Below, one piece after another: positions 1 to 551 of a stretch of DNA of 64,000 nt. The notes below the pieces were generated by a model, which was not told the origin of the DNA, did not search any database, and was given only the letters and a program-made list of their open reading frames with translations. Positions within the stretch are counted from its first letter, which is position 1. Each line of letters opens with the position of its first letter. The position numbers and the translations under genes are program-made. Source of the DNA: Flavobacterium ustbae (lineage in GTDB: Bacteria; Bacteroidota; Bacteroidia; Flavobacteriales; Flavobacteriaceae); NCBI RefSeq assembly GCF_003946915.1, contig NZ_RPOC01000019.1:1-64000 (forward strand). The letters run 5' to 3'.

Positions 1-50
1 ATATAAAATTTTTGAGAAGAACTGGAATATAGAATATATAAGTAATGCAT
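1..50 (-). CDS. GIY-YIG nuclease, second tandem copy (5' end only)
   Basis: Only the first 16 codons lie in the window; the gene continues past the left edge. These bases are identical to the start of the complete GIY-YIG gene at 142..429, offset by 379 bp. The start ATG at 50 stands in the same context, just after a terminator hairpin. Whether the rest of this copy is intact cannot be seen. Confidence 0.7.
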   Translation of the reverse strand, partial: MHYLYILYSSSSQKFY

Positions 51-73
51 TTGTGAGTATGTTGAAAAACAAA

Positions 74-97
74 AAACCCACTCGTTTGAGTGGGTTT
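74..97 (-). terminator. Duplicated tRNA-Phe terminator
   Basis: Exact copy of the hairpin at 453-476: a 10-bp stem with a 4-base loop. It lies between the tRNA 3' remnant and the partial GIY-YIG gene. On the minus strand it is followed by a T-rich tract. Confidence 0.75.
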
Positions 98-99
98 CG

Positions 100-138
100 T
101 GGTACCTCCAGTCCCGAGGCTTCGGGAGAACCAGGGAC
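100..138 (-). pseudogene. tRNA-Phe 3' fragment (T-arm and acceptor strand)
   Basis: Reading on the minus strand, the T-stem 5' side and GTTC of the T-loop (138-128) and the T-stem 3' side and acceptor strand (111-100) match tRNA-Phe. Five bases of the T-loop and stem (491-495 in the real gene) are replaced by a 16-base palindrome. There is no 5' half, so this cannot be a working tRNA. It starts three bases past the GIY-YIG stop codon, as if the tRNA 3' end were part of the mobile unit. Confidence 0.85.
112..127. repeat. 16-bp palindrome TCCCGA-N4-TCGGGA
   Basis: A perfect 6-bp inverted repeat with a 4-base loop, inserted in the T-loop of the tRNA-Phe remnant. A close relative (TCCCGAA-N2-TTCGGGA) lies at 26437-26452, which suggests a dispersed small palindromic element. 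Confidence 0.8.
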
Positions 139-141
139 GCA

Positions 142-429
142 TTATGATTTTCTTTTACTAAGAATGTCTTTTAGAATTGATGGGTCTGCTATTATTTTAT
201 TATTGAAAATTTTGCTTTTCATTTTTTTGATGAAGCTTTCAAGATATAAAGCTTCGTCTCTATTTTCACAGATAAAACTTAAAACTATTTCCCAATCTCT
301 AGCAATTTTAGTGAAAGAATTTGAATATGAATGGTTGTTGTGTTTTAATGTTCTTTCATCAATATTGCTTGTTTCGCCAATATAAAATTTTTGAGAAGAA
401 CTGGAATATAGAATATATAAGTAATGCAT
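142..429 (-). CDS. GIY-YIG family nuclease (tRNA-associated)
   Basis: A 95-residue protein made almost wholly of one GIY-YIG nuclease domain. Tyr5-Ile6-Leu7 and Tyr16-Ile17-Gly18 form the GIY and YIG strands. Arg26 and His30 lie on the following helix, and Glu64 in an ALYLE segment fits the metal-binding glutamate of the family. The start at 429 is chosen because a longer frame to 510 would run back through the terminator and the tRNA. The gene begins about 25 bases after the tRNA-Phe terminator, with no clear promoter, so expression may rely on read-through. The repeats around it suggest it moves or duplicates with the tRNA 3' end. The family is known for homing and repair endonucleases; the target of this protein is unknown. 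Confidence 0.88.
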   Translation of the reverse strand: MHYLYILYSSSSQKFYIGETSNIDERTLKHNNHSYSNSFTKIARDWEIVLSFICENRDEALYLESFIKKMKSKIFNNKIIADPSILKDILSKRKS

Positions 430-490
430 TTGTGAGTATGTTGAAAAACAAAAAACCCACTCGTTTGAGTGGGTTTCGTGGTACCTCCAG
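380..490. repeat. Direct repeat, right copy (111 bp)
   Basis: Identical partner of 1-111. Here it includes the genuine tRNA-Phe 3' end. Sequence identity stops inside the T-stem at 490/111 and resumes for 11 bases (496-506 matching 128-138) beyond the replaced T-loop. Confidence 0.93.
444..476 (-). terminator. Rho-independent terminator of tRNA-Phe
   Basis: A 10-bp perfect stem (453-462 with 467-476) and 4-base loop, followed on the minus strand by a T-rich run. It lies two bases beyond the tRNA 3' end and separates the tRNA from the GIY-YIG gene. Confidence 0.88.
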
Positions 491-551
491 GGATCGAACC
501 AGGGACACATGGATTTTCAGTCCATTGCTCTACCATCTGAGCTAAGGTACC
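479..551 (-). tRNA. tRNA-Phe (anticodon GAA)
   Basis: A 73-nt cloverleaf can be drawn: acceptor GGTACCT/AGGTACC with discriminator A, a D-arm with GCTC and GGTAGAGC, anticodon stem ATGGA/TCCAT around loop CTGAAAA (anticodon GAA), and T-loop TTCGATC. CCA is not encoded. The T-stem as drawn has a T-T opposition at positions 51 and 63. It is read leftwards, and its 3' end is followed by the terminator and the GIY-YIG unit. Confidence 0.96.

Follow-up and report, generated by a model that had tools for sequence, protein, structure and literature searches.

The short unit at the tRNA-Phe gene near the left end of the DNA analysed here probably belongs to a large family of minimal elements in the chromosomes of Flavobacterium and its relatives, each specific for one tRNA isotype, which would be of the homing type and be amplified by cutting and repair; we give this reading a probability of about 0.6. 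The window, as it is called below, is the whole analysed stretch of 64,000 nucleotides from Flavobacterium ustbae (contig NZ_RPOC01000019.1, positions 1 to 64,000). Read along the minus strand, the tRNA-Phe gene is followed by a terminator, a GIY-YIG nuclease gene, a partial tRNA-Phe copy that contains a palindrome, a copy of the terminator and the start of a second GIY-YIG gene. The parts are as follows.

478..551, minus strand: intact tRNA-Phe gene, anticodon gaa (ARAGORN; Rfam tRNA, 66.6 bits)
452..477, minus strand: intrinsic terminator, copy U, between the tRNA and the nuclease gene (11 pairs, loop of 4, T tail)
142..429, minus strand: GIY-YIG nuclease gene encoding 95 amino acids, with its ATG at 429 and its stop at 142-144 (open reading frame, Pfam, alignment, AlphaFold2)
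99..150, ends approximate, minus strand: partial copy of tRNA-Phe comprising tRNA positions 34-56 and 62-74 (locus comparison with L016 and L031)
112..127, minus strand: palindrome TCCCGAAGCCTCGGGA, which substitutes for T-loop positions 57-61 in the partial copy (sequence comparison)
73..98, minus strand: terminator, copy D (11 pairs)
1..50, minus strand: start of the second nuclease gene, 16 codons (50-3), cut at the contig end (translation)
1..111, no strand: direct repeat, equal to 380-490 (identity 100%; unit period 379)
380..490, no strand: direct repeat, equal to 1-111 (identity 100%)

The exact repeat and the 379-bp unit are just as the initial annotation had described them. Its list of parts also holds for the terminators, the GIY-YIG gene and the start of the second gene. 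The plain tRNA 3' fragment of that list does not hold, since a palindrome replaces positions 57-61 of the copy. At its 5' end the partial copy runs into the final codons of the nuclease gene, and the longer frame 142-510 matches Pfam PF01541 with E=3e-13. The tRNA-Phe gene is uninterrupted, and the nuclease gene is accompanied by neither an intron nor an intein, as judged by open reading frames, Pfam and Rfam. Between the repeats the GIY-YIG gene is the only frame of note; no integrase or transposase frame lies inside the unit of the window, in agreement with what had been proposed at the outset. In Rfam searches over positions 1-700 the tRNA alone scored above threshold, and no ribozyme was detected. 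Since the window and its contig (G000:C10:1) begin at the same base, the array cannot be read further to the left. The contig break fits an unresolved tandem array, and an effect of the assembly on copy number is also possible. A relative, G054, carries at L045 a two-unit array with a period of 379 bp as well, with unit starts at 1122 and 1501 once the locus is turned. In the window and at L083, L103, L114, L117, L122, L127 and L143, the contig stops no more than about 250 bp from a unit, as if tandem copies broke short-read assemblies at tRNA loci. At a further locus (L029, 1501-1836), the open frame continues across the partial tRNA copy and the palindrome, so that the GIY-YIG protein receives a tRNA-derived tail.

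The host genome, that of F. ustbae, has 12 places that match PF01541, six of which are spread over five tRNA loci (Phe, Asn, Ala, Val with two units, and Asp). These loci share one build, namely tRNA, terminator, GIY-YIG gene, palindrome-interrupted partial copy of the same tRNA, and terminator. The second terminator copies the first at the Phe and Asn loci and is similar or different at the Ala, Val and Asp loci. The single-copy GIY-YIG genes on contigs C20, C9 and C55 of this genome adjoin no tRNA. The genome also contains a second, identical tRNA-Phe gene that carries no element, which counts against the preferred explanation.

Matches to the nuclease are frequent among relatives. The protein search gave a match in 30 of 61 genus genomes (E<=1e-8), and the alignment search in 96 of 149 family genomes (E<=1e-12) and 107 of 296 phylum genomes (E<=1e-18); all these figures include GIY-YIG genes of other kinds. 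Loci from the host, genus and family were annotated by one script, and the clusters obtained form a non-random sample biased to the best matches, as it comprises the host's own matches, the top-scoring loci from each search and a further 60 regions picked down the ranking among the matches listed. Larger stretches of the same places are counted in place of L045-L047, L049, L054 and L058. In this sample of 125 GIY-YIG clusters, which counts one locus twice (L098 = L111), 93 clusters adjoin a tRNA gene on the same strand; 68 of them lie directly after it (class 3') and 25 directly before it (class 5'). The remaining 32 adjoin no tRNA; they include 11 of a separate clade, several near contig ends, and L086, which was scored as tRNA-less despite a tRNA between its two nuclease matches. 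A tRNA gene on the opposite strand was found within 600 bp in 0 of the 125 clusters. In the phylum search, 25 of the best 28 loci are tRNA-adjacent. In a collection of named genomes, tRNA-Phe lies directly upstream at 18 of the 19 loci with at least 52% identity, no tRNA being called at the other (L264). The initial annotation had considered a purely local duplication for the case that no other tRNA carried such a unit and the single copy was constant; units are instead found at tRNA genes in 93 of 125 clusters and at 25 of 28 phylum loci, in 1 to 6 copies.

Partial copies of the adjoining tRNA are a regular part of these loci. In tests on 92 clusters, from which L098 was dropped, a copy of the cluster's own tRNA with at least 20 matched bases lies beyond the gene in 75 clusters, compared with 1 of 337 far flank windows. 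Under a looser rule of at least 9 matched bases, the counts are 86 of 92 and 24 of 337. Foreign-isotype tRNAs reached 20 bases in 66 and 9 bases in 177 of 460 draws, a control that is no clean null because tRNAs resemble one another. The search for small GIY-YIG genes at tRNAs with tRNA fragments, suggested together with the initial annotation, thus yields many tRNAs and many genera, with a clear copy in 75 of the 92 clusters. Clear partial copies were obtained for Ala, Arg, Asn, Asp, Met, Phe, Pro, Ser and Val and, among the phylum loci, for Gly and Lys; the Thr copy of the phylum loci is weaker, with 19 bases. A clear copy is missing in 17 of the 92 clusters, including all four His clusters, in which the units lie 106-373 bp from the tRNA, and this counts against the preferred explanation.

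When rRNA, tmRNA and other RNA genes were considered as targets of the seemingly tRNA-less clusters, 27 of 27 Rfam matches at 40 loci were tRNA, so that these candidates were rejected and the mirror arrangement of class 5' was revealed. In this class, for example at L128, L131, L101 and L077, a 5' partial tRNA copy, mostly with a palindrome, is followed by the GIY-YIG gene and the intact tRNA; at L128 the partial copy consists of tRNA bases 1-22, CCTGCCTGCCGCAGGCAGG and bases 23-35. The two orders together give a simple rule: the gene has the strand of the tRNA and is flanked by an intact tRNA on one side and an interrupted copy on the other, whichever comes first. The initial annotation had placed the target at the tRNA 3' end. 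With 25 clusters on the 5' side of an intact tRNA, the 3' end alone is too narrow a description of the target, which is the tRNA gene.

The clades of the nuclease follow the isotype of the tRNA. When the label of each row (isotype or none) was placed on a tree of 115 nuclease rows, in which in-frame stops were entered as X, 31 changes were required compared with 79.2 for shuffled labels, and 0 of 200 shuffles were as low. The 8 Phe rows are united in one clade (SH-aLRT 99) that also takes in four rows from beyond the genus, and the 4 His rows form another (SH-aLRT 93). Met, Ser and some others are scattered on this tree, which was built from few columns and leaves many forks open; for L096 the label Ser-gct is questionable, the rows next to it on the tree being Pro of class 5'.

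The palindrome occupies a place that is likewise related to isotype. By a rule that requires a stem of at least 6 with at least 3 G/C and its absence from the intact tRNA, a palindrome is present in 68 of 86 partial copies and in 10 of 158 flank windows of 110 bp. The 18 of 86 copies in which this rule finds no palindrome count against the preferred explanation. In the aligned partial copies the position of the palindrome is largely constant per isotype group. It lies at tRNA positions 57-61 in the T-loop for Phe, at 46-50 or in the T-loop for Asn, in the anticodon arm for Val, Pro, Arg-tct and most Ala, in the T arm for the host's own Ala copy, near the anticodon loop for Met, and between positions 22 and 23 for Arg of class 5' (Arg-tcg). 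By standard tRNA numbering we take these isotype-constant sites to be loops or whole arms of the cloverleaf.

The number of head-to-tail units varies from 1 to 6 among loci. Six units were found in G007, five each in G022 (one contig) and G183, four in G161, and three each in G017, G202 and G086. The array of G007:C24 (L294, 33800-38000) was spotted by the spacing of its palindromes; it consists of six units with Pro-type partial tRNA copies, and no intact tRNA lies inside this stretch. The advance forecast that G007:C24 is a tRNA-nuclease array, made from six GC-type palindromes about 358 bp apart, was thus partly right. An array that ends in one intact tRNA would be the product expected when a cut tRNA gene is repaired from the copy with the palindrome.

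The repeats on both sides of the gene match each other within a genome. Over 16 Phe loci, the tRNA end with its terminator before the gene matches the corresponding stretch after the copy at 0.94 in the same genome and at 0.79 across genomes; L253, which has no second terminator copy, was left out of this comparison. The match between upstream and downstream repeats was reached in 0 of 10000 permutations, and the own copy was best or joint best at 10 of the 16 loci. This high match within genomes indicates that the copies track the local tRNA locus, which could reflect either target duplication on insertion or continued conversion by repair. Among the isotypes other than Phe, the two repeats often agree less well, with values that fall to about 0.5. 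A terminator frequently lies after the partial copy.

Empty and filled sites, the comparison of which had been proposed with the initial annotation, both occur at the tRNA-Phe/coaX locus. Among the 30 loci examined there, 3 are filled, 26 are empty and 1 is unreadable. The flank of the filled locus of G015 after the palindrome aligns to the empty locus of G008 over 1457 columns (81%); the corresponding values for G054 are 1407 columns and 80%. G006, which is nearest to the host genome at this place (93%), is empty, and F. ginsenosidimutans (L252), whose nearness in coaX is about equal to that of G006 (91.1% vs 91.4%), is filled. Truncated remnants are seen at L279 and L253. The tRNA 3' ends are alike in filled and empty Phe loci, so that protection from cutting is not visible there, which counts against the preferred explanation.

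Under the preferred reading, the nuclease would cut or nick the isotype-matched tRNA gene close to the position of the palindrome, and the palindrome would render the partial copy uncuttable, allowing it to persist as a template. Repair from the partial copy on the same or the sister chromosome would then produce an extra tandem unit, and repair from the element of another cell would fill an empty tRNA gene. The host would retain a working tRNA, the intact copy being either kept or rebuilt. The mobile or self-amplifying element of the initial annotation thus finds its counterpart in the units at other tRNAs, in the variable copy number and in the empty and filled sites; cleavage by the nuclease and movement of the unit are what we infer from these features.

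The distances among the Phe elements bear on a possible transfer between cells. The nuclease DNA of L250 and L255, which represent two distant host lineages, is 79.7% identical to that of 13 other Phe elements, which are 78.7% identical among themselves, and the corresponding values for coaX are 76.5% and 85.4%. Among the 105 pairs of rows, the pair L250/L255 set against the rest takes rank 87 for the nuclease and rank 1 for coaX, which speaks for transfer. Against transfer count the short nuclease tree, which fails to reject a clade of the three distant hosts (AU p=0.39), and the weak correlation of host and nuclease distances (Mantel r=0.36; 351 of 5000 shuffles as high); the empty loci L201, L203 and L206 as well as L199 were left out of these two comparisons. 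For tRNA-Val, the flanks of empty and filled loci did not align. Searches for a carrier gave no plasmid match for the window protein and no phage match for a Val-type protein, and a viral search with the Phe alignment gave one weak contig match of 45 residues at 38%.

The nuclease itself is a small single-domain GIY-YIG protein. Columns Y5, Y16, R26, H30 and E64 (window numbering) are invariant in 17 aligned proteins, and we take them to be the GIY-YIG active site. The AlphaFold2 model of the window protein has a pLDDT of 92.5. Its best fold matches among solved structures are UPF0213 (1zg2, first), Slx1 and I-TevI, none under E 0.001, and the best sequence match among solved structures is again UPF0213 1zg2, with E=2e-13. 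NCBIfam gave no match above cut-off for this protein. Protein identity is near 80%, compared with a fourfold-site identity near 47% (silent sites saturated), a pattern consistent with purifying selection on the nuclease gene. Neither the alignment nor the AlphaFold2 model reveals a separate DNA-binding domain, which counts against the preferred explanation.

Palindromes resembling those of the units are also scattered through the genomes, and this opens another reading, in which the palindrome would be the mobile module, the GIY-YIG protein a helper that spreads it in a REP-like manner, and the tRNA arms a favoured landing place. Palindromes of the form TCCCGN..NCGGGA recur at unrelated tRNAs and genomes, and TCCCGAAGCNTCGGGA has 38 forward and 45 reverse matches in the host genome vs 0 for controls. 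At 4 of 16 Phe loci (L252, L260, L261 and L263, imperfect in L261) a further palindrome lies inside the loop of the copied terminator, and the structure-specific Slx1 is among the sequence and fold neighbours of the nuclease. Furthermore, TCCCGAWNNWTCGGGA is commoner in genomes with a Phe-type nuclease, its mean number of sites per genome being 11.3 in the 30 with and 1.7 in the 31 without a Phe-type match (61 genus genomes, E<=1e-8; Mann-Whitney p=1.4e-4; partial rank correlation given genome size 0.36, p=0.004), but kinship confounds this correlation, which is based on a single query, and G060 is miscounted as without although the alignment search matches it. G006, near the host and without a Phe-type match, has 2 such sites compared with 59, and one of its tRNA-Val genes is followed by a run of N. 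Against this reading, the results for the GC-type palindrome are mixed among these genus genomes, and 20 sampled stretches (1.1-1.9 kb) around genome-wide palindromes of the host contain no tRNA and no tRNA-type nuclease frame, though one host palindrome lies about 200 bp from the non-tRNA GIY-YIG gene of C55. The nuclease and the genome-wide palindromes may or may not be causally linked, and we regard a leading role of the palindrome as rather unlikely. On G012:C6, paired palindromes sit among apparent outer-membrane genes.

A domesticated host system is unlikely too. The nuclease, together with a tRNA-like RNA, would in that case regulate or cleave its cognate tRNA, or act on foreign tRNA genes in defence, and the number of copies would tune the dose. 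The strict same-strand placement at tRNAs and the conservation of the protein despite saturated silent sites would suit such a function, and partial copies, which often precede a terminator, may be transcribed. However, the unit is patchy at one orthologous locus (3 of 30), it decays to remnants at L279 and L253, and the identical second tRNA-Phe of the host is free of it. That the window merely displays a local tandem duplication or an effect of assembly at a contig end, with no mobility involved, is very improbable: the window does start at a contig end and its second copy is visible for 111 bases only, but the five-unit array of the one-contig G022 and the units at many tRNAs of many genera largely refute this as a general explanation.

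The closest system in working is the free-standing homing endonuclease SegB of phages. SegB of phages T4 and T6 is encoded by a GIY-YIG gene among tRNA genes, has cleavage sites within tRNA genes, and is required for tandem amplification of a unit of tRNA and segB (PMC13096335; PMC2988022). Both systems have a GIY-YIG nuclease at tRNA genes and tandem units of tRNA and nuclease gene. However, SegB has 221 residues compared with 95 in the window protein, and the A1 profile of the present family does not detect T4 SegB, so that the two are not the same sequence family. Beside T4 segB, the adjacent tRNAs have no clear partial copy (best local scores 17 and 12). In contrast to SegB, the present family is chromosomal, single-domain and isotype-specific by clade, and has a palindrome in most partial copies. 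UPF0213 shares the single GIY-YIG domain and provides the nearest solved structure, 1zg2. The 11 GIY-YIG rows without a tRNA neighbour, two of which are presumably UPF0213-like, form a clade of their own, distinct from the rows of the tRNA type.

Integrative islands at tRNA 3' ends use the tRNA gene as their site, create a direct repeat with the tRNA 3' end and keep the tRNA intact. The present units resemble them in all three respects. They differ in that the unit of the window has one gene in 379 bp and no integrase, and in that the family lies 5' or 3' of the tRNA with a palindrome inside the repeat; an island of the integrase type was rejected because no site-specific recombinase lies between the repeats of the window. 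A group I intron in the tRNA was also rejected, the tRNA being uninterrupted and no ribozyme scoring above threshold in positions 1-700 or, at gathering score, at 40 related loci. REP/RAYT systems share the short palindromes scattered in the genome, but 0 of 9 Y1_Tnp places of the host genome are at tRNA units. An origin of the palindrome from RAYT is improbable, as the clustered palindromes at L037, L038 and L039 differ, although single YCCCG..CGGGR palindromes occur 0.2-1.3 kb from the Y1_Tnp gene in L036, L037, L039 and L044. The Y1_Tnp genes of L037, L038 and L039 have upstream clustered palindromes of their own, of types CCACGGATTTTAATCCGTGG, CCCACGGTTTCAACCGTGGG and TGACCCTTTCAGGGTCA, which are unlike those of the tRNA units. 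In the open-access literature, covered by titles and the starts of abstracts, chromosomal tRNA-lodged GIY-YIG units are nowhere recognisably described.

If the preferred reading is true, it would add to the known parasites of tRNA genes a widespread chromosomal kind that is isotype-specific and has no integrase or transposase of its own, and it would show how a tiny nuclease lives next to its own target. It would also account for oddities of annotation such as tRNA-derived tails on small GIY-YIG proteins and contig breaks at tRNAs. Since the nucleases and tRNAs form natural pairs, the DNA target specificity of single-domain GIY-YIG enzymes could be read from their variation. A bolder version is tentative and, in our judgement, well short of even odds: a 95-residue GIY-YIG protein, a palindrome and a host tRNA gene would together constitute a new minimal mobile element that amplifies itself, with each nuclease lineage adapted to the arms of a single tRNA isotype (clear copies are seen for at least 11 amino-acid identities). 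The palindromes left or needed by these nucleases would then be the same as those scattered in the genome, and nucleases lodged at tRNAs would account for some of the palindromic repeats in these bacteria.

Small GIY-YIG genes of the host are associated with palindromic repeats in a second way. Long inverted repeats (GTCATCCTGACGAAGGAAGGATC and variants) lie about 10-60 bp after the GIY-YIG genes of L008 (G000:C20), L026 (G000:C9) and L027 (G000:C55).
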